Virus record (IMG/VR): IMGVR_UViG_3300025131_006363
Coordinates: 1-38,803 of that record
Direction: 5' to 3' (one strand)
Source: a virus
DNA length: 38,803 bases
How positions within the stretch are numbered: position 1 is the first letter of the stretch; the number at the start of each line of letters is the position of its first letter. The position numbers and the translations under genes were made by a program. The notes below the pieces were generated by a model. That model was given only the letters and a program-made list of their open reading frames with translations. It was not told the origin of the DNA and did no database searches. Of the stretch, positions 14,206 to 38,803 are shown one piece after another.

Positions 14206-14959
14206 TATTACTGCTATACTAACCTGCTATCGTCGCCCCCAAAACCTAGAGAAACAGGTGAAGGCTATTTTAGCGCAAAGTTGCCCCCCTAAGGATATTT
14301 GGGTCTGGAAGAACGCTCATGCAGAAAATGAGGGGTTTGATCCCTCTAAAATCGAAGGAATTACCGCATGTATTGGTTCTTCTCATAACTTTAAGTACCA
14401 TGGGAGGTTTGCATTAGGTCTTCTCACAGCGTCGAAATACTTAGCTTTTTTTGATGACGATACCATCCCTGGAGAGAAATGGTTCGATAATTGCTTAGAA
14501 ACTATGGATACGCATGAGGGCATTTTGGGGGGAGCGGGGGTCATTATGCATAGCCGAGTTTATGATATCCCAGGGTATGCCTGTCCACATACTAGAGTTG
14601 GATGGCCGAGTGCTAATGAAGAGGTTGAAGAAGCGGATTTGGTAGGTCATGCTTGGTTTTTAAAAAGAGATCATCTGAACCATTTGTGGCGAGAGATACC
14701 TTTTACTTTAGAAAATTGTGAAGATATGCAGCTATCATACATGGCTCAACGACACGGTGGGTTAAAAACTTACTGCCCTCCTCACCCTCAGAGTGATAAA
14801 AGCAAGTGGAGTTCTCTCCGACCGTTTGAATTAGGTGATGACGAGGTAGCCTCTTCAAATGCTGGAGGGAAAGACTACGCTTATTTTTGTAAACTCAGAA
14901 ATAGCTTTGTGTCTTATGCTATAGAGAATGGTTGGCAGACCGTTAAAGAGGTGAAATGA
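14198..14959 (+). CDS. GT2-like (GT-A fold) glycosyltransferase
   Basis: A 253-aa protein. It begins ITAILTCYRRPQNLEKQV, the usual start of GT-A family 2 enzymes, and carries a metal-binding DDD at 86-88 (FFDDDTIPG). A candidate catalytic region with ENCEDMQLSYMAQ follows in the second half. It probably transfers a sugar from a nucleotide donor in a Mn2+/Mg2+-dependent reaction. It overlaps both neighbours by 8 and 4 bases. Confidence 0.78.
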   Translation: MSDITAILTCYRRPQNLEKQVKAILAQSCPPKDIWVWKNAHAENEGFDPSKIEGITACIGSSHNFKYHGRFALGLLTASKYLAFFDDDTIPGEKWFDNCLETMDTHEGILGGAGVIMHSRVYDIPGYACPHTRVGWPSANEEVEEADLVGHAWFLKRDHLNHLWREIPFTLENCEDMQLSYMAQRHGGLKTYCPPHPQSDKSKWSSLRPFELGDDEVASSNAGGKDYAYFCKLRNSFVSYAIENGWQTVKEVK

Positions 14960-15951
14960 GAATATTAGTAGCATACGGAACGCGACCTGAATATATTAAA
15001 ATTCAGCCCCTTCTGAAGCAGTTTAGAAGGAATAGAGTCTCTTATAAAAGTGTAAGGATAAGGCAACACACTGATCTCCTTCCTGTAGATAGCGATCAGA
15101 CCATTGAAGTCTTTGAGGATAAGATCTACCCCCTGAACCGCTTGGATACAATAGTTCGTTCCATTCTTTCTTCTTTTCATGTATTTGATGATATTACACA
15201 TGTTTTAGTGCAAGGAGACACTACAGCCGCTTTTGGGATGGCTCTGGCTTCTTTTCATAAAGGTGTTCCCGTGATGCATTTAGAAGCAGGTTTACGGACT
15301 AACGATAAAGCTTCCCCTTTCCCTGAGGAAGTTAATAGACGGATGATTTCTTCTTTAGCGTCGATCCATTTTTGTCCTAGGGCTCAAGATAAAATGAATC
15401 TAGTAAAGGAGGGATATATCGGTGATAAAATATACATAACAGGAAACACGGTTATTGATAATATAAAGGATATGCCATCTATACCTAAATCCAATAACGA
15501 AGTTTTAATTACTATGCACAGGAGGGAGAATCACAAAGATATGAAAGAGTGGTTTTCTGCCATATCTAAGTTAGCCAGGAAACATAAAGCCTATGATTTC
15601 GTTTTCCCCATGCACCCCAATCCAAATGTTCAGGCGTACAGGAATCTTCTTAAGGGGGTAAAAGTGTGTGAGCCTTTTGATTATACTGAAATGAAAGTAA
15701 GGTTAGCTGCTTGTTCCTGTGTAATTTCTGACAGTGGAGGAATTCAGGAAGAATGTAATTATTTCAAAAAGAGGTGTTATGTTTGTAGAACCTCTACGGA
15801 GAGGTCATGTTTAACAAATGTAATGTGCTCTTCCCCTGCCGAACTGGTGAAGAGGTTTGATCCCGCTAAATCTTGTAATATAACGGAACCCTGCGAATTT
15901 GGAGATGGAAATGCAGCAGAAAAAATTACAAAAATCATCCAAGAGCTTTAA
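14956..15951 (+). CDS. wecB: UDP-N-acetylglucosamine 2-epimerase
   Basis: A 331-aa enzyme that interconverts UDP-GlcNAc and UDP-ManNAc. Family motifs are clear: GTRPEYIK (8-15), QGDT (86-89), HLEAGLRT (108-115), PEEVNRR (123-129), HRREN (188-192) and SDSGGIQEE (about 258-266). The catalytic acids expected in these motifs are present. The length is slightly under bacterial WecB (about 370). A GAGGTG ribosome site precedes the ATG. It suggests that ManNAc, or a sugar derived from it, is part of the glycan made by this island. Confidence 0.9.
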   Translation: MRILVAYGTRPEYIKIQPLLKQFRRNRVSYKSVRIRQHTDLLPVDSDQTIEVFEDKIYPLNRLDTIVRSILSSFHVFDDITHVLVQGDTTAAFGMALASFHKGVPVMHLEAGLRTNDKASPFPEEVNRRMISSLASIHFCPRAQDKMNLVKEGYIGDKIYITGNTVIDNIKDMPSIPKSNNEVLITMHRRENHKDMKEWFSAISKLARKHKAYDFVFPMHPNPNVQAYRNLLKGVKVCEPFDYTEMKVRLAACSCVISDSGGIQEECNYFKKRCYVCRTSTERSCLTNVMCSSPAELVKRFDPAKSCNITEPCEFGDGNAAEKITKIIQEL

Positions 15952-16714: not shown

Positions 16715-17085
16715 ATTTGCGATTGGTTCAAAACGAGGAACTTTACTACAGGTATATTTATTACCTTCGCATTCACCCCGCAACCAAAGACGGCTTCATG
16801 AGCCAAGATAAAATTTCTATAGAAGATCATTATAAGTTTATGGAAAAACATGAAGAGAATTACTATGTCTGCCTCTATAATGGGTTCACTTGTGGATTTG
16901 TGGGAGTGGTGGATGATGATGTTAGAGTATGTACCGATCCCTCTTATCAGAAGAAAGGCATAGGAAAGTTTATGCTTGAGGAGCTTAAAAAGTTATACCC
17001 CAACGCAAGAGCTAAAATAAAAAAAGAAAATAAGGCAAGTATCGCGTTATTCGAAAAGAGTAAGTTTAATTTTGAATTAGTATGA
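16702..17085 (+). CDS. GNAT-family N-acyltransferase
   Basis: A 127-aa GNAT domain. The acetyl-CoA binding motif is QKKGIGKFMLEEL (83-95), preceded by the β4 strand (FVGVVDDDVRV) and followed by a typical β-bulge. It lies directly before a DegT-type aminotransferase, so it may N-acylate the amino group that enzyme installs, as in Qui3NAc or Qui4NAc synthesis. It overlaps both neighbours. ATG 16708 is a possible alternative start two codons later. Confidence 0.75.
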   Translation: MHMVNLRLVQNEELYYRYIYYLRIHPATKDGFMSQDKISIEDHYKFMEKHEENYYVCLYNGFTCGFVGVVDDDVRVCTDPSYQKKGIGKFMLEELKKLYPNARAKIKKENKASIALFEKSKFNFELV

Positions 17086-17687
17086 ACGCTTATGATGTAG
17101 TAAGAATTTTTGAGAGTGAAGTCGCCAAGTACACAGGGGCTCCATATGCTGTAGCTGTAGAGAGTTGTAGCAATGCGCTACTTCTCTGTTGTGAGTATTT
17201 AAAAGTGAAGAAGGTTGAGCTTCCTGCTAATACCTATGTGTCTGTACCTAACGCTGTTATTAGAGCAGGTGGTAAGATTAAGTTTGTAGACAAATGGTGG
17301 AAGGGATCTTACACCTTAGACCCGTATCCCATTGTAGATGCAGCTAAAAGATTCACCTCTGGAATGTACGAGCCTGATACGCATATGTGTGTTTCTTTTC
17401 ATGGTCGTAAGATTCTAAACGCTGGTCGAGGAGGTATGATTTTAACGGATGATGTGGAAGCCGTAGAGTGGTTTAAAAGAGCCCGTTTTGATGGGAGAAA
17501 AGAGGGGGTTCCCATTGATGAGGATGATATAAATGTTTTAGGTCATCATGTTTACATGACCCCTGAGCAAGCGACCGCTGGTTTATCACGACTTCTTTTT
17601 CTTCCTAAGCACAACGAAGATATGCCTGAGGAGGATTATGGGGATCTAAGGAAGCACTCCATATTTAAGGAGTATTATTATGAGTAA
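17082..17687 (+). CDS. Compact DegT/DnrJ-type sugar aminotransferase-like protein
   Basis: A 201-aa protein of the DegT/DnrJ/EryC1/StrS fold. Visible are the PLP-binding Asp region (IVDAAKRF, D86) and SFHGRKILNAGRGGM with the putative Schiff-base lysine K110. Usual members are about 370 aa; this one lacks most of the C-terminal domain and has short internal loops. It may act as a minimal enzyme or be degenerate. The ORF is intact and coupled on both sides, arguing against simple decay. Pairing with the GNAT gene suggests an N-acylated amino sugar. Confidence 0.65.
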   Translation: MNAYDVVRIFESEVAKYTGAPYAVAVESCSNALLLCCEYLKVKKVELPANTYVSVPNAVIRAGGKIKFVDKWWKGSYTLDPYPIVDAAKRFTSGMYEPDTHMCVSFHGRKILNAGRGGMILTDDVEAVEWFKRARFDGRKEGVPIDEDDINVLGHHVYMTPEQATAGLSRLLFLPKHNEDMPEEDYGDLRKHSIFKEYYYE

Positions 17688-22099: not shown

Positions 22100-22805
22100 A
22101 GAAATACCTGAAGAATTATTAAACCAGTACACATTAGATGGTCAGATTGAAGTGGAGAGTAAGTACCTAGACAACGCAAATGAGGAGATACAGGCAGAGT
22201 TTAACGCTAATTTCACCTCCGAGAAGTTTGAGGAGTACTTACAAATGGCAAAGGACCGTAAGGCTAATTACTACGGTTCTACGGACATTTTCTTATACCT
22301 AGCCTTAGATAAGTTCCCTATCAAAGATAAACATGTTTTAATTATGGGCTCCGCTAACCCATGGTACGAGGCAGTATGCGTTGAGTACGGAGCTAAAAAA
22401 ATAACAGTTGTAGAGTATAGTGATCGCCCAGAACTACATTCTCTGGTTGAGTATAAGAAAATGGACGAAGTACAGGGAGAACAATTCGATGCCGCTATTT
22501 CTATTTCTTCTTTTGAACATGATGGGTTAGGTAGATACGGGGACCCACTAAATCCTGATGGGGATTTCGCTGCAATGGCTGATGTTCGGACGATGCTTAA
22601 AACTGGAGGTAATTTATTTTTAGCTGTACCTCTGGGGAAAGATAAGCTAGTGTGGAACGCACACAGGATATACGGGAGTATCCGTCTCCCTCTCCTTATG
22701 CGAGGTTGGACACCAGTTCTTTCTGTTGGAGCCTCTTCTGACGATGTAGATGTGGATACGGGGATCCAAGCAGACCATCAACCTGTGTTTGTACTTCAGG
22801 CATGA
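22086..22805 (+). CDS. DUF268-like (methyltransferase-fold) protein
   Basis: A 239-aa protein with the DUF268 signature SSFEHDGLGRYGDPLNPDGD (141-160). The VLIMGSANPWYEAVCVEYGA segment (84-103) looks like a SAM-binding strand, consistent with a methyltransferase-type fold. DUF268 proteins occur in polysaccharide loci with undetermined function. I chose the ATG at 22086 (AAGGAT upstream); an upstream ATG at 22038 would create a 62-base overlap. It is followed by a four-base overlap with the next SDR. Confidence 0.75.
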   Translation: MKPPEEIPEELLNQYTLDGQIEVESKYLDNANEEIQAEFNANFTSEKFEEYLQMAKDRKANYYGSTDIFLYLALDKFPIKDKHVLIMGSANPWYEAVCVEYGAKKITVVEYSDRPELHSLVEYKKMDEVQGEQFDAAISISSFEHDGLGRYGDPLNPDGDFAAMADVRTMLKTGGNLFLAVPLGKDKLVWNAHRIYGSIRLPLLMRGWTPVLSVGASSDDVDVDTGIQADHQPVFVLQA

Positions 22806-23773
22806 GTTTTTGGGCTCACAAGAAAGTATTAGTTACAGGAGCGCACGGCTTTGTTGGGAGAAATGTAACAAAAGAGTTAAGGCATCGAGGTTGCGGTTGC
22901 GTTATGTCCCCTACTAGAGCAGAATATGATCTAACAAAAGAAGAGGATGTTGATAGGCTATTTTCAAAGCATCGGCCTGAGATAGTAATACATTTAGCAG
23001 GTAAGGTAGGGGGTATCGGGGTTAACAAGGCATACCCTGGAAGCTTTTATTATAGTACCGCTATGATGAGTACTTTAGTAATGGAGTACGCTAGAAAGTA
23101 TTCTGCGGAAAAGGTTGTGGCTCTAGCAGCAGGATGTGGCTACCCCGAAAATCTAAAGGCTCCCTATAAGGAATCTGATTTTTTCTCAGGATTCCCAGAC
23201 GCTAACTCTTTTGGTTATTCTATGGCAAAGAAGGGATTGGTTATTCAATCTCTGGCGTATAGAGAGCAGTACGGGTTTAATTCTACCATCCTCCTCCCTG
23301 CTAACCTTTATGGTCCTTATGATAATTTCGATCCAGAGACAAGCCATGTTGTACCTGCCTTGGTGAGAAAATTTGTAGAAGCCAAGAGATGGGACCATGA
23401 TCATGTTATGGTATGGGGCTCTGGAAAAGCTTCAAGAGAATTCCTGTATGTAGAGGATGCGGTTACCGCTATCCTTGATATGGCTGAAAGGTGTAATGAA
23501 ACTGGCCCATTTAATTTGGGAACTGGTGAAGAGACTACTATTGAAAAGTTAATCGAAATCCTCTTAGACATTACAGGGTATAAGGGGAAGGTGAAGTGGG
23601 ACGGGACTAAGCCTGATGGTCAGCTTAGAAGGTTCTACGATATGTCTAAGTTCCAAAAAGCGTTAGGATATATCCCCTCTACCCCTGTCAGAGTGGGTGT
23701 AAATTGGACAGTAGACTGGTATAAAAACCACTATGAGGAAGAGCCTCACAAACGAATGGAGATGTATTCTTAA
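22802..23773 (+). CDS. GDP-L-fucose synthase-like SDR
   Basis: A 323-aa SDR with GAHGFVG (13-19) for cofactor binding, AGKVGGIGVN (66-75), a hallmark of GDP-L-fucose synthase, and YSMAK (139-143) as the catalytic pair. It would turn GDP-4-keto-6-deoxymannose into GDP-L-fucose by epimerisation and NADPH reduction. The fucosyltransferase at 19559 and the dehydratase at 38309 would be its partners. The cysteine active-site strand (AAGCGYP) fits the SSC-x-YP motif loosely. A related reductase/epimerase is the alternative. Confidence 0.75.
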   Translation: MSFWAHKKVLVTGAHGFVGRNVTKELRHRGCGCVMSPTRAEYDLTKEEDVDRLFSKHRPEIVIHLAGKVGGIGVNKAYPGSFYYSTAMMSTLVMEYARKYSAEKVVALAAGCGYPENLKAPYKESDFFSGFPDANSFGYSMAKKGLVIQSLAYREQYGFNSTILLPANLYGPYDNFDPETSHVVPALVRKFVEAKRWDHDHVMVWGSGKASREFLYVEDAVTAILDMAERCNETGPFNLGTGEETTIEKLIEILLDITGYKGKVKWDGTKPDGQLRRFYDMSKFQKALGYIPSTPVRVGVNWTVDWYKNHYEEEPHKRMEMYS

Positions 23774-24165
23774 TGAAAAATGAATCGCGCAAGTATTTGC
23801 CTACGGCATCTGAACTTATTGATAGGCTTTCAATCGTTCAGCTTAAAGAAGTGTTTATTCCCCAACATAAGGAGGAATATAAAGAGGAGATAAGTGATAT
23901 CGTACATGATATAAGCTTATTAGGTATGGACGGTGAGCTTCTCCGTTCCGTTATAGTTTTAGCCCAGATGAATCTGCACATTTGGCACAACGAAGCTAAC
24001 TTTAGACAAGGCATTGATGAAGGTAATGATCTAGAGTTGACGCATGGTTTAAATGGTATTCGTAATACTGCTAAAAACAAAATTCAAGAGAAGAACGGGG
24101 GCAGAAAGGATTACAAGATTGATTGTCTTGGTTCTAAATTTAAAGATTGGGAGGTTAGTTGGTAA
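23773..24165 (+). CDS. Small helical protein of unknown function in the glycan island
   Basis: A 130-aa mostly helical, charged protein (LPTASELIDRLSIVQLKEVF near the start). It resembles proteins found scattered among bacterial polysaccharide loci (DUF4254-like pattern, uncertain). No catalytic residues are recognised. It overlaps its neighbours by one base (start) and by TAATG (end), so it is co-translated with the sugar genes. A structural or accessory role is possible. Confidence 0.5.
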   Translation: MKNESRKYLPTASELIDRLSIVQLKEVFIPQHKEEYKEEISDIVHDISLLGMDGELLRSVIVLAQMNLHIWHNEANFRQGIDEGNDLELTHGLNGIRNTAKNKIQEKNGGRKDYKIDCLGSKFKDWEVSW

Positions 24166-25295
24166 TGGAGAACCTTACAGACGCCCCAACCTACTCCCAG
24201 GACGCGGATACAAAACCAGGGTATATTGATCATAGTGTAGAGAATTGGGATACCTGTTCTCACCCTAATATTCTTATTACGGGAGGAGCGGGTTATATTG
24301 GCAGCGTTTTAGTGCAAAAGTTTATGGAAGCTAAGAAGATGTACAATATGAAGACCGTTAATCGAAAGAATAAGGAGGGTAAATGGTGGAAAGAGACTAC
24401 TCCTAATATTAGAACTTTTAAGAAGATTACGGTATATGATAACTTAATGTACAAGCAAACTCCCTTAACTCAGTATTGTTATAGGGGAGATGAGTTTCAA
24501 TTTGTAAGGGGTGATGTGAGAGATCAAGAGAAACTACTCCCTTACATTAAAGAAGCTGATGTAATTATCCCTCTAGCAGCTATCGTGGGAGCCCCAGCGT
24601 GTGAGCGAGATAAGCAGTTAGCTATGGATGTGAATTATAGGCATGTTAAATTCTGCTGTGAGAACGCGCAGCCTCATTGTAAGATTATTTACCCTAACAC
24701 TAACAGCGGTTATGGTGTAGGAGAGAAAGGGGTAGAATGTACAGAGGATACAGACCTTAAGCCCATCAGCCACTACGGTAAAACTAAGTGTCTGTCTGAG
24801 AGAGTAGTTTTAGACCGTGGGGGCATTGTTTTTAGACTAGCCACTGTGTTCGGCGTTTCTCCCAGGATGCGGCTAGATCTTCTGGTTAACGATTTTACAT
24901 ATAAGGCTCATAAAGATGGTTACATAGTGTTATTTGAATGGGATTTCGTGAGAAATTATATCCATGTTCAAGATGTTGCTTTGGCATTCTTACGAGCTAT
25001 TCACTATTATACACATCCCCAAAAGATGATGATGGGTGTGTATAATATTGGGATGTCGGATGCTAACCTAACTAAATTAGAATTAGCTAAGAAAATTAAA
25101 GAGCATTACCCTAAATTTTCTATACAGTTTGATGATATTGCCAAGGACCCAGATAAACGGGATTACATTGTTTCAAATGCACGGATAGAAAAAACAGGGT
25201 TTAAACCTCACTACACCCTGGATAGGGGAATCCAAGAACTTCAGAAAGCTTTTGATATATTAGCCCCATCTTTAAATCAATATACTAATCTATGA
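24165..25295 (+). CDS. Extended SDR with long N-terminal extension
   Basis: A 376-aa SDR. About 30 residues precede the Rossmann motif GGAGYIG, and an insert of about 35 basic residues (KTVNRKNKEGKWW) separates it from the next strand. SDR features after this are NTNSGYG and the pair YGKTK. The ATG at 24165 (TAATG with GGGAGG upstream) is preferred to TTG 24159. Reaction not predictable; nucleotide-sugar epimerase or dehydratase is most likely. Confidence 0.77.
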   Translation: MENLTDAPTYSQDADTKPGYIDHSVENWDTCSHPNILITGGAGYIGSVLVQKFMEAKKMYNMKTVNRKNKEGKWWKETTPNIRTFKKITVYDNLMYKQTPLTQYCYRGDEFQFVRGDVRDQEKLLPYIKEADVIIPLAAIVGAPACERDKQLAMDVNYRHVKFCCENAQPHCKIIYPNTNSGYGVGEKGVECTEDTDLKPISHYGKTKCLSERVVLDRGGIVFRLATVFGVSPRMRLDLLVNDFTYKAHKDGYIVLFEWDFVRNYIHVQDVALAFLRAIHYYTHPQKMMMGVYNIGMSDANLTKLELAKKIKEHYPKFSIQFDDIAKDPDKRDYIVSNARIEKTGFKPHYTLDRGIQELQKAFDILAPSLNQYTNL

Positions 25296-26299
25296 AAATA
25301 GTTTCCGATTTCTCTAGATTTGAGTGTGAGTGGGGGGTTGTCCCTTATGTGAATCAGGATCTTCTTCTTCACAATGACGAGGAATCTGATTGTGTGCTTT
25401 TTAACGGAGCGGCAGGTTTATATGACTCTGATTTCAGGGATACTTATAGGGATTACCGAAGAAGGTGCTTATTAGCATTATGGAGCCCTTGTGAATTAAT
25501 TGAGGGGCCAAGCGTGTACCATTTTGATGATTATGTATTTTTTACTGAAGTATATTGTTGTTGCCCTTTCACTTGCCATTTTATGAATCAATTTTTCGGG
25601 GAGGAAAAGTTCAAGTATATTCCTTACCCCTACACAAATCACAGCGTCACTCGCTATAACGACCATGACGCATTAGTTTCTTGGTTTGGGGGTTGTCATT
25701 CTCAAGATCACGCATCTGCAATCGACACTCTTCGCAAGTTTAAGCATAAGTATATTACGACACGGAGAAATGTTGGACCTAGAGGTATGGATAGGCGAGA
25801 GAGGGATTACCCTACCCATGTAGACCTCTCCACGGAAGACAAGTTAGTTGAAATTAGTAGATGCAGGGCATCACTCTCTTTTAATAAATTGTATTTAAGG
25901 GATGCATGGGACACAATTTCTCACTCCCGTAATGACGGGAACTTTCTTGAAGGTAATTTACGAAACAAAGCTTTTAGTAATTTTGATGAGCAGATTATGC
26001 CTCAATTTAAGGTAAGGAATCATGAGATAGCTAGTTGTAAGTCCCTTATTCTAGCTTATAAAGACCCGTGGAATCTAATAGAGGACTTCTATACCCCTGG
26101 AGAGGACTTTATACCCTTTTCCAATTTTGAGGAATTAAATGATATACTCTCTGACATGGAAAATGATGCTGACTTGTATAGAGATGTGGCACAGAACGGG
26201 TTTGATAAAAGTCAAATGTATTCTGTTCAGAAAATTTACGAATACATCAAGACTAATGATGAGTCTTTAATAAGTTGGAGCTTAGATAATGTTGAATAA
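25292..26299 (+). CDS. Glycosyltransferase-like protein (CgeB/GT1-like C-terminus)
   Basis: A 335-aa protein. The C-terminal part (about 235-285) shows the CgeB-like pattern in which an acceptor/donor loop (VRNHEIASCKSLIL) is followed by DPWNLIEDFYTPGEDFIPF. The N-terminal part is a divergent Rossmann region. Cysteine-rich CCCPFTC lies near residue 90. The family call is weaker than for the SDRs, but the locus favours a glycosyltransferase. It overlaps neighbours by four and eleven bases. Confidence 0.55.
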   Translation: MKIVSDFSRFECEWGVVPYVNQDLLLHNDEESDCVLFNGAAGLYDSDFRDTYRDYRRRCLLALWSPCELIEGPSVYHFDDYVFFTEVYCCCPFTCHFMNQFFGEEKFKYIPYPYTNHSVTRYNDHDALVSWFGGCHSQDHASAIDTLRKFKHKYITTRRNVGPRGMDRRERDYPTHVDLSTEDKLVEISRCRASLSFNKLYLRDAWDTISHSRNDGNFLEGNLRNKAFSNFDEQIMPQFKVRNHEIASCKSLILAYKDPWNLIEDFYTPGEDFIPFSNFEELNDILSDMENDADLYRDVAQNGFDKSQMYSVQKIYEYIKTNDESLISWSLDNVE

Positions 26300-27245
26300 A
26301 AAAGTTTTAGTTACTGGTGGCACGGGAATGATTGGTCGCCAACTTGTACACCTACTTCTATCTCAAGGAGCAAGTGTAACAGTTGTCTCCTTGGATGAAA
26401 ATATAAATCTTCCTGATGAAGTTGAGTTTAAAAAGTTAGACCTAACAGAGTTATCCAATTGTTTGGATGTTTGTAAAGGCATGGATTATGTGTTTAATTT
26501 GGTAGGGGTTAAGGGCTCTCCTAAAATGTGCCAAGAGAAACCAGCCAGCTTTATGGTTCCTATGCTTATGTTTAATACTAATATGATGGAGGCAGCGAGG
26601 AGGTGTGAGGTTTCCTGGTATCTTTATACTAGTACGGTTGGGGTGTACGAACCTGCCGAGATTTTACGAGAAGACGATGTATGGAAAACCTTCCCCTCCC
26701 CTCACGATAGATTTGCAGGTTGGGCTAAAAGGGTAGGGGAACTACAGGCAGAGGCGTATTCAATTCAATATGGTTGGGATAGAGTTTCTATAGTCAGACC
26801 AGCCAATGTGTACGGTCCTTTTGATAACTTTGATCCAGAAAACGCTATGGTCATCCCTTCCTTAATCCGAAAGGCTTATGAAAACGATGTGATTAGTGTG
26901 TGGGGAGATGGATCTCCTATTAGAGATTTCATTCATGCGAGAGATGTAGCCAGAGGAATGATGTATGCGGTTCAGTATGGTATTACAGAGCCAGTTAACT
27001 TAGGAAGCGGGGAGGGGTACAGTATTAAGGAAATAGCTGAGATTATAGCAAATAGATTCTCTAAACAAATTTCATGGGATGCCTCCAAGCCCCAAGGTGA
27101 CTCTAGAAGAATCCTGTCTATGGACCGCATGAATACGCACGGGTTTAAGGGCGAAGTATCTCTTGAGGATGGTATTGATGAAACTATCGAGTGGTTCCTC
27201 GAAAATTACGCAAACATAGATAAACGCCACAATGCATTTAGGTAA
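26289..27245 (+). CDS. Extended SDR lacking the usual catalytic tyrosine
   Basis: A 318-aa SDR with GGTGMIG (10-16) and the substrate-side NVYGPFDNFDPEN. The motif that should read Y-x3-K is AGWAK at 143-147: Lys is kept (K147) but the Tyr position is Ala. The next residues (RVGELQAEA) keep the family register, so this is not a misreading. The protein may use another residue, catalyse a different step or be a binding-only homologue. Related motifs are shared with the SDRs at 22802 and 27911. Confidence 0.72.
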   Translation: MLNKKVLVTGGTGMIGRQLVHLLLSQGASVTVVSLDENINLPDEVEFKKLDLTELSNCLDVCKGMDYVFNLVGVKGSPKMCQEKPASFMVPMLMFNTNMMEAARRCEVSWYLYTSTVGVYEPAEILREDDVWKTFPSPHDRFAGWAKRVGELQAEAYSIQYGWDRVSIVRPANVYGPFDNFDPENAMVIPSLIRKAYENDVISVWGDGSPIRDFIHARDVARGMMYAVQYGITEPVNLGSGEGYSIKEIAEIIANRFSKQISWDASKPQGDSRRILSMDRMNTHGFKGEVSLEDGIDETIEWFLENYANIDKRHNAFR

Positions 27246-27918
27246 AAGAGTTTTAATTACAGGGGCTGGTAGCGGTCTAGGTCAGTTCCTCTATGAACGA
27301 ATAGAGGATAGCGTTGCGCTTACTAGGTTAAACAGGGAGAGCGTTCTGCGGGATGAATTTGATATTATCATACATTGCGCTTTTAACAGTTCTAACGAAA
27401 TCGCAGACTACTACCAATATGTAGACGATAACATACTGCTAACTCAGGACTTAACCCGAATACCTCACAACAAATTTGTGTACATATCTTCTGTGGATGT
27501 ATATCAGGAGGAAAATTCCTTTTATAAGCTCTCTAAGGTTCTTGCGGAATCTATTGTTACTAAAAAAGCCAGTAACCCTATTATTTTGCGCTGCTCTTCC
27601 TTGTTAGGTCCTACCATGCGTTCCAATAACTTCACTAAATTGTTGGGTGAGGAATCGCCTAAACTGTCTCTCAGTAGCGACTCGGAGTTTAATTATGTAA
27701 GGCAGCAGGATGTGTTTGATGTTATTATTTCTTTGATAAACTCCACGGCTCAAGGTATAATAGATTGCTGCGCCAGTAGCAGCATGAGCTTAGAGGATGT
27801 AGCGCATTTAGCGGGAGTAACTCCCTCTTATGGGAAGTATGTGTATAAGGTTTCTAAGCAAAAAGGGTGTATTAATAAAACTTCAGAAGAGGTCATTAGA
27901 GAGTATTTAGATGGGTAA
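27232..27918 (+). CDS. Compact SDR (NAD-dependent epimerase-like)
   Basis: A 228-aa SDR: GAGSGLG (11-17), YISSVDVY and the catalytic pair YKLSK are present. It is shorter than typical extended SDRs because the C-terminal substrate-binding part is reduced. RCSSLLGPTMRSNNF resembles the region before the substrate pocket. Overlaps both neighbours by 14 and 8 bases. Probably a reductase or epimerase acting on a nucleotide sugar. Confidence 0.68.
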   Translation: MHLGKRVLITGAGSGLGQFLYERIEDSVALTRLNRESVLRDEFDIIIHCAFNSSNEIADYYQYVDDNILLTQDLTRIPHNKFVYISSVDVYQEENSFYKLSKVLAESIVTKKASNPIILRCSSLLGPTMRSNNFTKLLGEESPKLSLSSDSEFNYVRQQDVFDVIISLINSTAQGIIDCCASSSMSLEDVAHLAGVTPSYGKYVYKVSKQKGCINKTSEEVIREYLDG

Positions 27919-28852
27919 GAAAAAGGTGCTTATTTGTGGAGCTACTGGCTTCATAGGAAAGAATGTTTTAGAAAGGTTTCGGTTAAATCCTGAGTACGAG
28001 GTAAGAGGGGTTTACCATAAAGAATCACCTTCTGTTTATCTGGGGGTAGACTGGGTGTACGCTGATCTTAGAAATTTTAGGGATGTTAAGCGTGTAATGG
28101 AAGGAGTTGATATAGTTATTCAGTTGGCTGCAACTACTTCTGGAGCAAAGGATATAGTGACTAGACCACATATTCATGTAACAGACAATGCCTTGATGAA
28201 TTCCCTCATTTTAAGGGAGAGTTATGAACAGGGTGTAGAGCATCTTATCTTCCCCAGTTGCACCGTGATGTATAAACCGAATAAGAAAAAACAAAAAGAG
28301 AGTGATTGGGATGCATCGGAAGAGATATACCCTACTTACTTCGGAGTGGGAAAAACGAAAGTGTATTGCGAGGAGATGTGCAAATTTTACGCTGAGTTAG
28401 GTTCAACAAAATATACAGCAATCCGACACTCTAACATTTATGGGCCTCATGATAAGTTTGATCTTGATAAGTGCCATGTGTTTGCTGCGATGATGCGAAA
28501 GGTGTTAGAAGCAGATACGCAGATGGAAGTGTGGGGGACAGGGAAAGCGTGTCGGGATTTACTCTATATTGATGATTTAGTAGACTTTATAGAGTTATGT
28601 ATAACGAAACAAGAGGCTCCGTTCGAGTTGCTTAATTGCGGCAGCGGAAAAGCTACCCCTATTCTTAATATTGCTAAAGAGGTTATGCGCCTTAAGGATA
28701 AGACTCTAGTGGTAACTTATGACACTACCAAGCCTGATATACCTACAACTGTGGTGTTGGACTGTTCTCGCGCCAAAAAACTTTTGGGGTGGACCCCTTC
28801 AACTAACCTAAAGACAGGAATACAACAGACCCTAGATTGGTATGAAAAATAG
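27911..28852 (+). CDS. Extended SDR with altered active-site motif (YFGVGKTK)
   Basis: A 313-aa SDR. GATGFIG (10-16) binds the cofactor and SNIYGPHDKFDLD marks the substrate side. The motif region reads YFGVGKTKVYCEEM (143-156); in the best register the catalytic Lys is K150 and the Tyr position is Val, although Y143 lies nearby. I recall a similar SDR type in O-antigen clusters, though this is unverified. It heads the cassette with the split thiamine-diphosphate enzyme and the DegT gene, suggesting the last reduction or epimerisation step. Confidence 0.72.
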   Translation: MGKKKVLICGATGFIGKNVLERFRLNPEYEVRGVYHKESPSVYLGVDWVYADLRNFRDVKRVMEGVDIVIQLAATTSGAKDIVTRPHIHVTDNALMNSLILRESYEQGVEHLIFPSCTVMYKPNKKKQKESDWDASEEIYPTYFGVGKTKVYCEEMCKFYAELGSTKYTAIRHSNIYGPHDKFDLDKCHVFAAMMRKVLEADTQMEVWGTGKACRDLLYIDDLVDFIELCITKQEAPFELLNCGSGKATPILNIAKEVMRLKDKTLVVTYDTTKPDIPTTVVLDCSRAKKLLGWTPSTNLKTGIQQTLDWYEK

Positions 28853-29474
28853 CAAAGAAACTCTTATTTCTTTTGAGAAGGATATAGCATCCATATATGA
28901 AGATGGGAAGATCCATGGACCCATTCATTTAAGAGATGGCAATGAATCGGCCCTAGTAGACATCTTTAGAGATGTACTGGAGGGTGATTATGTGTTTAGT
29001 TCATGGGCTAGTCATCTTCATGCTTTGCTACACGGTGTTCCTGCTGATCTGGTGAAGGAGGAGATCTTAAAAGGAAGATCAATAACCTTACATTTTCCTA
29101 GTTATAATTTTTACAGTTCCGCTATCGTCGGAGGAATCTGCCCAATTGCGGTTGGCGCGGCATGGGCTCTCAAAAGGAAAAAAAGCTTTAAAAGAGTGCA
29201 TTGTTTCATTGGAGATATGACCTCCTTAACAGGGGTAGCTACAGAATCTATTAGATACTCTATAGCCCATGATTTACCTATAGTCTGGGTCATAGAAGAT
29301 AACGGGAAGAGTGTGGGGACCGTCACCCAGGAAGTATGGAAGCTTGATATCGCTGAGGTAGTTTCGGAGTACAAGAAATTAATAAATGAACGGCAATCTC
29401 AAGCCGATATCATCTATTATAAGTACGAGCTTACTTACCCTCATGCTGGTGTGGGTAAGTTTGTCCACTTTTAA
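28842..29474 (+). CDS. Thiamine-diphosphate enzyme, E1α-like subunit
   Basis: A 210-aa protein with the thiamine-diphosphate-binding signature GDMTSLTGVATESIRY (124-139) ending at N154 (IEDN). The pattern matches the α subunit of α-ketoacid dehydrogenase E1 or the N-terminal transketolase domain. It is much smaller than PDH E1α (about 330-370 aa). Together with the following β-like gene it would form one active site. No lipoyl-carrying E2 gene is nearby, so the two-carbon unit is probably used for something other than acyl-CoA. Overlaps the SDR by 11 bases. Confidence 0.75.
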   Translation: MKNSKETLISFEKDIASIYEDGKIHGPIHLRDGNESALVDIFRDVLEGDYVFSSWASHLHALLHGVPADLVKEEILKGRSITLHFPSYNFYSSAIVGGICPIAVGAAWALKRKKSFKRVHCFIGDMTSLTGVATESIRYSIAHDLPIVWVIEDNGKSVGTVTQEVWKLDIAEVVSEYKKLINERQSQADIIYYKYELTYPHAGVGKFVHF

Positions 29475-29480
29475 TCATAG

Positions 29481-30017
29481 ATGAAGTACCTTGAGGAAAT
29501 AAACAAAGGGATGAGATTATTACATTCTCATCCCTCCACCCTTTTTGTGGGACAAGCAGTTGAGTATAGAGGGACTGCTATAACACATCAGCTTAAAGAT
29601 TTTGAGCCCTCTCGCCTTTTGGAGATGCCTGTAGCGGAGGACTTTCAAGCGGGTTTTTGCTTAGGTCTTGCTTTGGAAGGAACCGTCCCTGTCTGCATCT
29701 ACCCCAGGTTCAATTTTGCACTTCTTGCCTGTAATCAGATAATAAATCATATAGACAAGTGGCCTTTAATGTCGGGAGGAAGATCTCTGCCCAAAGTAAT
29801 CATAAAAGTGGCTGCGGGTTCGGAGCGTCCACTCGATCCAGGGTATCAACACAAAGGCAATTATAGTGATGCCTTTAGGAGTATGACAGACACTTTAGAA
29901 GTTATTGATTTGCAAGACCCTTCGGATATATTTAGTGCGTATGAGAGGGCTTTAAAGCGAGAGGATGGAAAGAGCACTATGTTAATAGAACACGGAGATT
30001 TATATAATGAAAAGTGA
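29481..30017 (+). CDS. Thiamine-diphosphate enzyme, E1β-like (pyrimidine-binding) subunit
   Basis: A 178-aa protein matching the pyrimidine-binding domain of E1β/transketolase. E53 in PVAEDFQAG is the likely residue activating the thiamine N1', and PVCIYPRFNFALLACNQIIN follows the family. The C-terminal transketolase domain is missing, so this is a minimal subunit. It lies 6 bases after the α-like gene and overlaps the DegT gene by 11. An α2β2 enzyme is inferred. A role in branched-chain sugar formation is possible but unproven. Confidence 0.72.
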   Translation: MKYLEEINKGMRLLHSHPSTLFVGQAVEYRGTAITHQLKDFEPSRLLEMPVAEDFQAGFCLGLALEGTVPVCIYPRFNFALLACNQIINHIDKWPLMSGGRSLPKVIIKVAAGSERPLDPGYQHKGNYSDAFRSMTDTLEVIDLQDPSDIFSAYERALKREDGKSTMLIEHGDLYNEK

Positions 30018-31182
30018 ATACGCTAAGAAATTTGAAGTAAAGAATCCTTTAAAGAGGATTGAGTTTGGAGAGATCCAACTAAACCAAAGGTCCATCCAAG
30101 AGGTTAAAACTTGTCTAACCAATGAGTGGATCTCCTATGGTCCTCAAGTGAAGAAGTTTGAAAAAAATTGGGGTAAGCTGTTCAAGTACACATACAATAT
30201 GGCTATGAGTTCTGGTACGGATGCTGTTACTAATCTCCTAGCTTCTCTTTATGATTTTGGGGCCAAGAGAGGGGATGAGGTTATCGTCCCTGCGCTGTCC
30301 TTCATAGCTACCGCTAATGCGGTTCTCCATGCAGGGTTTACTCCTGTTTTTGTAGATGTAGAATTGGAAAGCATGAATATAGATCCCTCTAAGATAGAAG
30401 AGGCGATTACTCCTAAGACTAGAGCCATTTTAGCTGTACACACTATGGGTGTTCTGTGCGACATGAACGCTCTTAAGGAAATCGCAAGCAAGCATAAGCT
30501 TCTATTGTTTGAAGATGCCTGTGAAGCACATGGAGCTAAGTTAGGTCACGCCTATGTAGGCAAGATGAGTGATGGAGCAGCCTTTAGCTATTTTGCAGCA
30601 CATCTTATTTGTTGCGGAGAAGGGGGCATGGTTTCTACACAGAATAAGAAGGTAGCAGAGTCCGTAGAATCTACCAGGACCCACGGTAGGCATAAAGGTC
30701 ATGCATTTTTTAGACATGAGCGTGTTGGTTATAACTCTAAAATGAATGATCTTGAAGCTGCTGTGGGTTTGGGTCAGCTTGAAGACTTTTGGCAAACTTA
30801 TCGGGTAAGGAAGACACACTTGTATTATTTAAAAAATAAGTTGCGTGATTATAAGTCTTTAGCTTATTTTAACTACGATACAGAGGATATGGATGTATGT
30901 CCTCATGCTTTTAGTGTAGTTCTTAGAGATAAGTCTCATGATATAACTGAGCTTCATAAGGTTCTAGATAAATATAACATTCATTGGAAGAGAAACTTTG
31001 GATCCACTCCTACCCAGCATCAGGCTTACGCATTTATGGGACATAAGACAGGGGATTTCCCTAATTCAGAGCATATAGGGGAGCATGGTATACATGTGGG
31101 GGTTCATCAATACCTCTCGCAAGAGGATTTAGATAGAATGGTTGAGGCTTTTAGTGAATACTTTGAGGGATTGCCGTGCTGA
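30007..31182 (+). CDS. DegT-family PLP enzyme with His in place of Lys (ColD/RfbH-like sugar 3-dehydratase)
   Basis: A 391-aa full-length DegT/DnrJ/EryC1/StrS protein. D170 in EDACEAHGA contacts the PLP ring. The active-site loop reads SYFAAHLICCGEGG (194-207); the position that is normally the Schiff-base Lys is H199. That substitution marks the dehydratases ColD (GDP-4-keto-6-deoxymannose 3-dehydratase) and RfbH/E1, which remove the 3-hydroxyl instead of aminating. It would yield a 3,6-dideoxy-4-keto sugar. GGAG precedes the ATG. The dehydratase role is inferred from this residue and the neighbouring genes. Confidence 0.8.
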   Translation: MKSEYAKKFEVKNPLKRIEFGEIQLNQRSIQEVKTCLTNEWISYGPQVKKFEKNWGKLFKYTYNMAMSSGTDAVTNLLASLYDFGAKRGDEVIVPALSFIATANAVLHAGFTPVFVDVELESMNIDPSKIEEAITPKTRAILAVHTMGVLCDMNALKEIASKHKLLLFEDACEAHGAKLGHAYVGKMSDGAAFSYFAAHLICCGEGGMVSTQNKKVAESVESTRTHGRHKGHAFFRHERVGYNSKMNDLEAAVGLGQLEDFWQTYRVRKTHLYYLKNKLRDYKSLAYFNYDTEDMDVCPHAFSVVLRDKSHDITELHKVLDKYNIHWKRNFGSTPTQHQAYAFMGHKTGDFPNSEHIGEHGIHVGVHQYLSQEDLDRMVEAFSEYFEGLPC

Positions 31183-31532: not shown

Positions 31533-32519
31533 ATGGATAAAGAGGTTTTAAAGAGGCTTAAGACTGCTGGTTTGTTGTCGGAGCAGTCCCCTGATTTGGG
31601 GTTTGTTGGCACAGGTAGCTATGCTCTCAACAAGGTTATTTCTGGCGATTACACTAAAGGCATTCCCATAGGGATGATTACACAGTTCATAGGGGAGTCT
31701 AGTACAGCTAAGACTGTGTTCGGTACTCACATCCTTAAAGAAGCTCAAGCTGAAGGTTATTACTCTATGATGGTTGATAGTGAGAATGCTTACAACCCAG
31801 AGTTTGCTACTCATTTAGGTATTGACCCTGCTAATTTAATATACGCAGCCCCAGAAACCTTGGAAGAGTGTTTTCAAGTTATACAGGATACTATTATGGA
31901 GATCAGACGAGAAGATAAGGATACTCCTATTGTAGTGGTGTATGATAGTATTGCTGTGTCCCCCTCAAAAGCAGAGTACGAAGCTGAAAACTACGATGGC
32001 AACAATATGCAGGGAGCGGTAAGAGCAAAATCCACAGGTGCGTGTCTAAGAAAGATTAATCCTATTCTTCGCATGAAGAAGGTGGCTCTTGTTATTATTA
32101 ATCAAATTAGAAATAAAGTTGGCGTGATGTATGGTAGTCCTGATACCGCAGCAGCAGGAGGCAAAGCGTTAGAGTACTACTTGGGTGTAAATTTGAAATG
32201 TATTTCCAATAAGACTAGCGACTTGATTAGAGATGACCTAAAGAATGTAATAGGTATACAAGGAAAATTACGCAACACTAAGAACAAGTGTTCCATTCCT
32301 TTTAAAGAGTGTGAGTTTGAGCTATTGTTTAACGAAGGCTTGAACCCTTACGCTGGGCTTCTCAAGCAGTTTGAAGGAGACGGTCTTATTAATAGGGCTG
32401 GAGCTTGGTATACTGTGGAAGGAACTGGTAAAAAATTCCAATCCAAGGATTTGAAGCGCATCCTAGAGGGAGGGTCTGAGAAGGGGTACGAGCCCCTCAG
32501 AAATTTTTTAGAAGTTTAG
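31533..32519 (+). CDS. RecA/UvsX-like recombinase
   Basis: A 328-aa strand-exchange ATPase. Walker A reads GESSTAKT (54-61), with Ala where most RecA proteins have Gly before the Lys; the Lys (K60) and Thr remain. D138 ends Walker B (VVVYD). Loop L2 includes NQIRNKVGVMYGSPDT (190-205) and GGKALEYY follows. It pairs homologous strands in recombination-dependent replication and works with the SbcCD-like pair and SSB. No Shine-Dalgarno is seen at the start, with only a TATAAT box close by. Confidence 0.92.
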   Translation: MDKEVLKRLKTAGLLSEQSPDLGFVGTGSYALNKVISGDYTKGIPIGMITQFIGESSTAKTVFGTHILKEAQAEGYYSMMVDSENAYNPEFATHLGIDPANLIYAAPETLEECFQVIQDTIMEIRREDKDTPIVVVYDSIAVSPSKAEYEAENYDGNNMQGAVRAKSTGACLRKINPILRMKKVALVIINQIRNKVGVMYGSPDTAAAGGKALEYYLGVNLKCISNKTSDLIRDDLKNVIGIQGKLRNTKNKCSIPFKECEFELLFNEGLNPYAGLLKQFEGDGLINRAGAWYTVEGTGKKFQSKDLKRILEGGSEKGYEPLRNFLEV

Positions 32520-37952: not shown

Positions 37953-38312
37953 ATGTACCAATATAAAATCAAAACAATCGACCACATTGTAGATGGTGAT
38001 ACCTTCGACTGCACCGTGGACCTAGGCTTCAACATTACCCACAAAATCAGGGTGAGGATGTATGGAATTAATACACCAGAGAGTAGAACACGGGACTTGG
38101 AGGAAAAGGCCAGAGGATTAGCAAGTAAGAAGTATTTTACTGAGGTGATTACAAAATGGCTTGAAGAGGGTTCGCTCTTCGTTCATACAAAAGAGAAGGG
38201 TAAGTACGGAAGATACTTAGGTGTAGTGTTTAGCCTTAACCAAGCAGGTAGCATTAATGATTTACTAGTTGAAGAAGGATACGCAGTAAAGTATTTTGGT
38301 GGAAAGCGTTGA
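37953..38312 (+). CDS. Staphylococcal nuclease-like protein (thermonuclease fold)
   Basis: A 119-aa single OB-fold nuclease. DGDT (14-17) gives D16, RMYGINTPE (35-43) includes R35, T41 and E43, and KGKYGR gives R87; these match S. aureus nuclease residues D21, R35, E43 and R87. The usual Asp at position 40 is Asn, so calcium binding may be altered. It would cut DNA or RNA, perhaps for host DNA breakdown. No signal peptide is visible, so it probably acts in the cytoplasm. Start lacks a clear ribosome site. Confidence 0.85.
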   Translation: MYQYKIKTIDHIVDGDTFDCTVDLGFNITHKIRVRMYGINTPESRTRDLEEKARGLASKKYFTEVITKWLEEGSLFVHTKEKGKYGRYLGVVFSLNQAGSINDLLVEEGYAVKYFGGKR

Positions 38313-38803
38313 AGAGAGTCCTAATAACAGGGATTACGGGAAGTGGTGCTAGTTATTTGGCTGAGTATTTGGTCAAGTTCCACCCAGAGCTTGATGTGCA
38401 TGGAGTAGCACGATGGCACAGCACCGCAACTAATAAGAATCTTGAGGATATTAAAGATCAGGTTACTGTTCATGAATGTGATTTAACTGATTTTAGTGCT
38501 ATTCTATCCGTTTTGCGTGATGTAAGACCTGACTATGTGTTCCACCTTGCTGCTCATGCTAATGTTCATGCTTGCTTTAAGAACCCTTTATCTGTCCTAA
38601 ACAACAACATCAATAATACTATTAATCTTTTTGAGGCTATTAAGTTTTTGGAGTTGGACCCAATCATCCAGTTCTGTGGCACATCTGAGGTGTACGGATT
38701 AGTTACGGAAAAGGATGTCCCTATTACGGAGGATCAAGCTTTAGATCCAGTTAATATTTATGCGGTATCTAAACTGACGCAAGAGAAGATCGCCATGTCC
38801 TAC
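38309..38803 (+). CDS. GDP-mannose 4,6-dehydratase-like SDR (partial, runs off the window)
   Basis: The first 165 codons are present, starting at TTG 38309, which overlaps the nuclease stop (TTGA). They encode the Rossmann motif GITGSGAS (8-15), FHLAAHANV (78-86), active-site GTSEVYG (124-130) and YAVSK (151-155), matching the Thr-Glu-Tyr-Lys set of GDP-mannose 4,6-dehydratase. No in-frame ATG is near. The product would be GDP-4-keto-6-deoxymannose, precursor of fucose and 3,6-dideoxy sugars. The C-terminal half is not in the window. Confidence 0.78.
   Translation, partial: MKRVLITGITGSGASYLAEYLVKFHPELDVHGVARWHSTATNKNLEDIKDQVTVHECDLTDFSAILSVLRDVRPDYVFHLAAHANVHACFKNPLSVLNNNINNTINLFEAIKFLELDPIIQFCGTSEVYGLVTEKDVPITEDQALDPVNIYAVSKLTQEKIAMSY

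Follow-up and report, generated by a model that had tools for sequence, protein, structure and literature searches.

A phage gene cassette pairing a minimal E1-type thiamine enzyme with a His-type DegT protein: a candidate route to C-branched 3-deoxysugars

What kind of sugar might a virus modify with a thiamine enzyme split into two small subunits and a dehydratase-like protein encoded next to it? This question is raised by the virus record IMGVR_UViG_3300025131_006363, whose positions 1–38,803 (38,803 bases in all) form the stretch of DNA analysed here, which we will call the window. Four linked genes at 27,911–31,182, the cassette, code for an extended short-chain dehydrogenase/reductase (SDR4), for the alpha and beta subunits of an E1-type enzyme dependent on thiamine diphosphate (ThDP), which we call E1a and E1b, or E1ab when taken together, and for a protein of the DegT family with His at the position of the usual Lys, DegT(His). 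A sequence-only reading had described them as an unusual SDR, a split thiamine enzyme and a DegT protein with His; the open reading frames (ORFs), the Pfam matches and the individual residues agree with this description (Table 1). Our direct observations concern gene content, gene order, conserved residues, the folds predicted for E1a and for SDR4, and the way in which His-type DegT is paired with E1. Most likely the cassette is the phage version of a variant route, so far undescribed, which leads to C-branched 3-deoxysugars. In a more precise form, to which we give about the same weight as to its negation, its enzymes act late in the synthesis of a nucleotide sugar destined for a surface glycan, and the product is a 3,6-dideoxy-4-C-acyl sugar of the same kind as yersiniose.

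The genes of the cassette overlap by 11 bases at the first and third junctions and are separated by 6 bases at the second one. Homologues of all four are found in the same order, with 48–68% identity, in the viral contigs L007 and L008, where two extra genes lie between the SDR and E1a. This conservation of order indicates that the four ORFs are not due to chance. Chance ORFs, or a single gene interrupted by a frameshift, are also rejected by the fact that E1a and E1b are separate genes in 90 of the 92 E1a loci surveyed below; in the other two they are fused.

Both thiamine subunits are strongly reduced. E1a covers positions 16–180 of 315 in TIGR03182, i.e. only the first half of the alpha subunit of pyruvate dehydrogenase (PDH) E1, and E1b covers positions 22–178 of 327 in PRK09212, only the first half of PDH E1-beta. 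In Pfam the only match of E1b is Transket_pyr; the transketolase C domain gives no match. E1a keeps Asp125 and Asn154, while its GDG motif reads GDM. Among its relatives Gly124 and Glu152-Asp153-Asn154 are conserved and Asp125 is invariant in 12 aligned rows; in E1b we find Glu53 and His124, which are also conserved across relatives. Going by the human E1 structure, these residues would serve as ligands of Mg and ThDP, as the activating Glu and as a His of the active site. The third residue of the GDG motif is Met in 31 of 31 rows, with or without DegT (the scan pattern favoured GDM), and Gly in L003 and in the cyanophage proteins. The latter, annotated as "transketolase central region" in P-TIM68 (L001, 13,986–15,194) and S-SM2 (L002, 13,983–15,191), are fused relatives of E1-alpha and E1-beta: these relatives of phrog_34187 form one chain of 402 amino acids where the window has two genes, and are homologous to E1a with 41 and 43% identity and to E1b with 30 and 34%. 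The AlphaFold2 model of E1a (pLDDT 90) has human PDH E1-alpha as its nearest solved structure (E 6.4e-13, TM 0.81, query-based); its fold and profiles are both of the E1 type and not of transketolase. The best family names of E1ab in Pfam and NCBIfam are only E1 or transketolase-type domains, with PDH E1 on top. On plasmids, the best 15 of 286 records matching E1 are ordinary-looking E1 enzymes with 28–34% identity.

In the PDB alignment His199 of the window DegT (codon 30,601–30,603) falls on the lysine which binds pyridoxal phosphate in perosamine synthase 3bn1. The other viral DegTs near E1a, eight in number, all have this His, and some of them are only about 25% identical overall. The Cys motif of [2Fe-2S] dehydratases is absent from the window DegT, even with a loosened spacing. 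Among 96 DegT rows, duplicates and unlinked copies included, the motif was detected only once, in L072, which serves as a positive control; the spacing applied is what we take to be that of the CDP-sugar enzyme. A dehydratase of the E1/E3 (DdhC) type is rejected by the lack of the cluster motif. For the same reason the window DegT is a candidate 3-dehydratase of the ColD-like, His-containing type. According to PMC8987622, the change of Lys to His is the chief difference between the 3-dehydratases E1, ColD and SpnQ and the aminotransferases, and ColD has no iron-sulphur cluster.

How general is the association of the two enzymes? In a scan of genome contigs we confirmed 143 relatives of E1a; the counts that follow use the best 80 of these 143 plus 12 viral or phage loci, i.e. 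92 loci. The scan was based on two patterns of the phage E1a, around GDM and EDN, so that the set leans to that subfamily; neighbour profiles were built from His-type DegTs and also caught Lys types (L007, L008, L075). An ordinary acetoin dehydrogenase (L004) and four duplicates (L005, L014, L020, L021) were excluded before counting, and L001–L003 and L013 were also left out of the E1a tree. The contig L006/L014, identical to the window and possibly from the same sample, represents it in all counts. The 80 cellular loci belong to Verrucomicrobiota (24), Pseudomonadota (23), Nitrospirota (15), Planctomycetota (4), Bacteroidota (2) and six further phyla with one each, plus five bacteria and one archaeon with no phylum; many of them are metagenome bins, in which single odd phylum assignments may be wrong.

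Of the 92 loci, 78 have a DegT gene no more than 3 kb from E1a (9 of the 12 viral and 69 of the 80 cellular ones). At the key position 76 of these proteins have His, one is cut off (L097) and one has Lys (L056); this last protein is a weak match of 92 bits, and a contig of the same genome, which fits by coordinates, has a His-type DegT about 14 kb away. Those DegTs which lie more than 3 kb away, or in loci lacking E1, comprise eight with His (L015, L016, L017, L019, L022, L062, L067, L072) and three with Lys. As a background we searched PF01041 in ten E1-bearing genomes and obtained 38 matches at 1e-30. Thirty of them were read: 26 have Lys, one Ser and three His, and these three are the E1-linked copies, as checked by sequence, which leaves no His in 27 unlinked DegTs. 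The tie between a His-type, 3-dehydratase-like DegT and an E1-type enzyme, already proposed from the sequence alone, is thus supported (Fisher p 4e-24, a value which overstates the association, the loci being related). The set is indeed phage-borne, as had been claimed: the arrangement E1a-E1b-DegT(His) is found in nine viral loci. It was also sought in bacterial surface-sugar loci and is present in 67 cellular loci from eight named bacterial phyla. When 77 of the near DegTs are placed on the E1a tree, 5 belong to the subfamily of the window, 65 to a second subfamily and 7 to others, including the Lys protein of L056. The two His-type subfamilies are about 27% identical to each other, and at least three switches between them are apparent on a quick, partly unresolved E1a tree. 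That one His-type DegT has repeatedly taken the place of another beside the same enzyme speaks for a functional link: the pairing is not due to chance.

Several features do not fit well with a branched 3-deoxysugar as the product. DegT is missing within 3 kb of E1a in 11 of the 80 bacterial and archaeal loci. In L022, L062 and L067 a His-type DegT lies 4.5–8.3 kb from E1a, and L026, L046 and L063 end within E1b or at most 400 bases past it; L090, L094, L096, L098 and L100 have E1ab and no DegT in the fetched locus. In their whole genomes, which may be incomplete, the only DegTs of L090 and L096 are of the Lys type; L094 has one unlinked His-type copy, and L098 and L100 have no DegT at 1e-10. 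L090, L096 and L100 group with the viral loci L009–L012 and not with the window. In the fetched part of the phage contigs L015, L016, L017 and L019 DegT is present and E1ab is not. There are other His-type DegTs which are not near E1 (the second copy of L072, the genome of L094), and the stretch read around the fused E1 genes of cyanophages contains no DegT. Judged by its sequence, the DegT of the window is closer to Lys-type aminotransferases (best PDB match 3e-51) and to DdhC (4e-46) than to ColD (8e-32). Nor has a reductase for the branch been identified. Since some relatives have E1ab and no DegT, it appears that E1ab can act without 3-deoxygenation. The yersiniose-like logic of the sequence-only reading stands for the pairing of E1 with His-type DegT and does not extend to the five loci just mentioned without DegT; as a whole that interpretation is partly supported, its main logic being strengthened.

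The SDRs are the least understood part of the cassette. SDR4 has Val146 (28,346–28,348) in place of the Tyr of the YxxxK motif and keeps Lys150; a GDP-fucose-synthase-like (Fcl-like) SDR of the window was the Tyr-bearing control for this alignment. A second extended SDR, SDR26, has Ala143 at the same position. Loci were classified with purpose-built profiles, and those which combine E1ab with Tyr-less SDRs are called type A. They are 12, window included (L006–L012, L024, L090, L094, L096, L100): a GMD-like dehydratase is found in nine (that of the window was taken from L106), DegT(His) in eight and an RmlC-like cupin in eight, none of the latter appearing in the window in a profile search. SDR26 accompanies E1ab in these loci and is a probable member of the cassette. 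Its relatives have Ala, Gly or Pro instead of Tyr in 11 of 11 loci and all keep Lys; the relatives of SDR4 have Val in 9 of 11 loci, with Lys kept in those nine, and Tyr in L010 and L012. The model of SDR4 (pLDDT 91) groups with the structures of UDP-glucose 4-epimerase, GDP-mannose 3,5-epimerase and GDP-fucose synthase, with TM values on the query of about 0.8–0.9. The likeness is one of fold: the SDRs of GDP-fucose synthase have a catalytic Tyr, whereas the window has Val146 and Ala143. Simple ketone reduction by SDR4 is unlikely because the catalytic Tyr is gone. It keeps His189, which presumably corresponds to the epimerisation His of GDP-fucose synthase, and on this ground our guess is a non-reductive epimerase. 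SDR4 and SDR26 often occur together with E1ab and could form a heterodimer.

Every catalytic step in the pathway which we infer, with its substrates, nucleotide and order, is given here in conditional form. A 4,6-dehydratase, either the GMD-like one of the phage or one of its host, would provide a nucleotide-diphosphate-4-keto-6-deoxy sugar. DegT(His), with pyridoxamine phosphate and, like ColD, no iron-sulphur cluster, would remove the C3 hydroxyl. E1a and E1b would bind ThDP at their interface and decarboxylate a short 2-oxo acid, by analogy most likely pyruvate; having lost the parts that serve E2, they would add the acyl carbanion to the C4 ketone and give a 3,6-dideoxy-4-C-acyl sugar. The Tyr-less SDRs might epimerise the branched product or process it otherwise. 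The branching step must be kept conditional because, in some relatives, the E1 pair occurs with no DegT and frequently in the company of heptose-type genes. The GMD-like gene is a candidate for the first step. It is 59% identical to the copy in the Verrucomicrobia E1 locus L031 (the window protein is also found as G001:C1:2310-3281), and over its whole length it reaches 134 bits where the cut-off is 415, by which a GDP assignment from this gene is rejected; GDP-sugars, considered probable in the sequence-only reading, are only suggested.

That reading had also considered the pathway as possibly undescribed, which does not hold for the chemistry: in antibiotics, the branching of sugars by pairs of E1-alpha and E1-beta is known or has been proposed (PMC12247030, PMC4425429, PMC4802897). 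Pairs of this type, called alphaKADH2, branch or presumably branch sugars in aldgamycin, kosinostatin, kibdelomycin, paulomycin, trioxacarcin and avilamycin; the branches are all C2 and about 120 gene clusters are reported, E1-type branching being filed under secondary metabolites and YerE-like branching under lipopolysaccharide (PMC12247030). Plm8/Plm9 attach a C2 unit derived from pyruvate to 2,6-dideoxy- and 2,3,6-trideoxyhexoses (PMC4802897). Pau11 and Pau12 have 325 and 345 amino acids, and a knock-out of pau11 abolished paulomycins (PMC4425429). AviB1/AviB2 of Gram-positive bacteria are set against YerE of Gram-negative ones (PMC4753412), and EvdU5/EvdS3 are proposed as a sugar-branching pair (PMC10338323). 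Among the open-licence papers listed in our searches we found no account of an E1-type branching pair in O-antigen, capsule or phage loci.

The cassette shares with the alphaKADH2 pairs (AviB1/AviB2, Pau11/Pau12, Plm8/Plm9, KbDH-alpha/beta, EvdU5/EvdS3) the presence of PDH-E1-like alpha and beta subunits side by side; the antibiotic pairs are shown or thought to attach a two-carbon unit of pyruvate to a ketosugar. However the antibiotic subunits are full-length, as judged from Pau11/Pau12 with a C domain inferred from length, whereas those of the window have 210 and 178 amino acids; the former belong to secondary metabolism, the latter are found in phages and surface-sugar loci together with a His-type DegT. 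With the yersiniose A pathway (CDP-sugar, E1/E3 3-dehydratase, YerE) the window has in common that a thiamine enzyme and a His-type 3-dehydratase are encoded side by side among surface-sugar genes. The differences are that YerE is a single flavoprotein of the acetolactate synthase (ALS) type, while among the ORFs scanned the window has E1_dh and Transket_pyr on two genes, and that the yersiniose dehydratase is a [2Fe-2S] enzyme with an E3 partner, while the window DegT has no Cys motif (an E3 gene was not searched for). ColD, the 3-dehydratase of GDP-4-keto-6-deoxymannose, has the same His for Lys and also lacks an iron-sulphur motif, but it is only distantly similar to the window DegT. The system appears to fall outside the YerE and antibiotic families, since an ALS-type flavoprotein, a dehydratase with a cluster and full-length subunits were all tested for and not found.

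Type B loci are found mainly in Nitrospirota, Verrucomicrobiota and Burkholderiales. Their neighbours were clustered within 6 kb of E1a, and the counts cover all 92 loci, a few of type A included. An HddA-like GHMP kinase is found in 59 loci, an HddC-like nucleotidyltransferase in 41 and a GmhA-like SIS protein in 10; when the kinase and the nucleotidyltransferase were tested, heptose enzymes were the best NCBIfam names, below cut-off. A B12-binding radical SAM protein of about 518 amino acids, weakly HpnJ-like, appears in 58 loci. Transporter-like neighbours, named by eye, form clusters 8, 9 and 13, in 13, 11 and 10 loci; their recurrence is consistent with surface glycans. The fused E1 genes of cyanophages adjoin a Zn alcohol dehydrogenase and are near phosphoheptose isomerase genes. 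A locus of an uncultured gammaproteobacterium (L096, 10,143–13,583) has, after E1a and E1b, an acetolactate-synthase-like protein of 567 amino acids and split transketolase halves, i.e. three thiamine enzymes within one glycan cluster.

These neighbours are the basis of a live rival to the branched-sugar route, in which E1ab would work in the manner of a transketolase and assemble the precursor of a heptose or octose, not yet activated by a nucleotide; DegT(His) would act on that unusual sugar at a later stage. The heptose-type genes just counted, the order NTP-SIS-E1a-E1b-GMD-GHMP in L100 and the isomerase genes near the cyanophage E1 speak for it. We consider it unlikely, although it deserves attention: the kinase, nucleotidyltransferase and isomerase profiles have no match in the window at 1e-3, PF00483 has 0 matches in the record of 110,937 bases described below, E1a is of the E1 type in fold and profiles, and DegT, present in 78 of 92 loci, is the most constant partner of E1ab, above any heptose-type gene. 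Somewhat less probable is that DegT(His) makes a plain 3-deoxysugar similar to colitose and E1ab something else, as separate sugars of one island which is shuffled in blocks. This would account for L015, L016, L017 and L019, with DegT and no E1ab in the stretch fetched, for L090 and L100, with E1ab, both Tyr-less SDRs and no DegT, and for L096, with E1ab, one such SDR and no DegT; but chance clustering can hardly explain His in 76 of 78 DegTs and the repeated replacement of His-type subfamilies beside E1ab.

DegT(His) might also be derived from an aminotransferase and have a role other than dehydration, so that the product would be branched but not 3-deoxy. Its nearest PDB relatives are in fact Lys-type aminotransferases, and His alone is no proof of dehydration, but it is what chiefly sets the known 3-dehydratases E1, ColD and SpnQ apart (PMC8987622), and we find this option improbable. 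The least probable of all, to a degree that we hardly give it weight, is that E1ab is a degenerate or catabolic component of a 2-oxoacid dehydrogenase which feeds host metabolism during infection. The names given by Pfam and NCBIfam, with PDH E1 as the best, would agree with it. However the flanking genes scanned are sugar genes and not E2 or E3, the context is likewise one of sugars in phages and bacteria, E1b has no C domain and E1a no C-terminal part. A PDH complex has E2/E3 beside E1, or a C domain in E1-beta; neither was found among the ten window proteins scanned with Pfam, and a role of E1ab as a PDH component is rejected.

The window carries a UvsX-like recombinase gene, and sugar-related genes extend from about 11.4 to 31.2 kb (partly a reading by eye), among them WecB at 14,956–15,951, which scores above its curated cut-off. 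Stretches 100% identical to the window occur in another IMG/VR record, which is longer (L006, L014; 110,937 bases) and contains a further stretch with phage structural genes, as judged by eye, and one GMD-like gene at its other end. We could not name a host through the RecA-like gene: its phage relatives are all below 60% identity and the best row has 34.5%. A host match was also sought for a stretch of the longer record and nothing was found. In the phage contigs L015 and L016 RecA is 76% identical, the His-type DegT is kept with 65–66% identity and a radical SAM gene is present; E1ab is absent from the stretch covered. SDR24 is a possible member of the cassette: in 51 loci, window included, SDR24 or one of its relatives lies no more than 6 kb from E1a. 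At 17,082–17,687 the window also has a DegT-like ORF whose key residue is Lys and whose 201 amino acids are roughly half of what is normal for the family; L007 and L008 have comparable short forms.

Table 1. Genes of the cassette and related features. Positions refer to the window unless a locus is given.
Feature	Position	Strand	Remarks
SDR4, extended SDR with nucleotide-sugar epimerase/reductase fold	27911-28852	+	313 amino acids; Pfam Epimerase 7.8e-40
E1a, stripped E1-alpha subunit (ThDP PP-domain)	28842-29474	+	210 amino acids; Pfam E1_dh 6.6e-12
E1b, stripped E1-beta subunit (pyrimidine domain)	29481-30017	+	178 amino acids; Pfam Transket_pyr 4.3e-10
DegT(His), ColD-like 3-dehydratase candidate	30007-31182	+	391 amino acids; Pfam DegT_DnrJ_EryC1 9.9e-97
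SDR26, second Tyr-less extended SDR	26289-27245	+	Ala143 at Tyr position
Short SDR-like ORF	27232-27918	+	228 amino acids; between the two Tyr-less SDRs
SDR24, epimerase-type SDR	24159-25295	+	Tyr present; possible cassette member
Fcl-like SDR	22802-23773	+	normal Tyr; neighbour, cassette membership unproven
RecA-like gene	31533-32519
GMD-like 4,6-dehydratase, start only	38309-38803	+	runs past window end; complete on longer record
B12-binding radical SAM protein	L018 2623-4176		also in L027, L050, L071 and 54 more loci

The cassette may belong to something wider. As a tentative idea, to which we give clearly less weight than to the pathway proposed for the window, a minimal two-domain E1, freed from the 2-oxoacid dehydrogenase complexes, and a His-type DegT free of iron-sulphur cluster would form a widespread undescribed route to C-branched deoxysugars of bacterial surfaces. 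This route, with hexoses or heptoses as substrates of the DegT, would be spread over eight phyla or more and would have been taken up by phages more than once, and in one branch it would be completed by the pair of Tyr-less SDRs, with a step new for their family. Branched sugars are rare in surface glycans, which govern recognition by phages and by the immune system. If the route is as we propose, the stripped E1 pair together with a His-type DegT, as present in many uncultured bacteria and in phages, would be a genetic signature for unknown branched sugars and would offer a small enzyme for making tertiary alcohols. It would also provide a testable case of phages which remodel the surface of their host by means of an imported sugar pathway.

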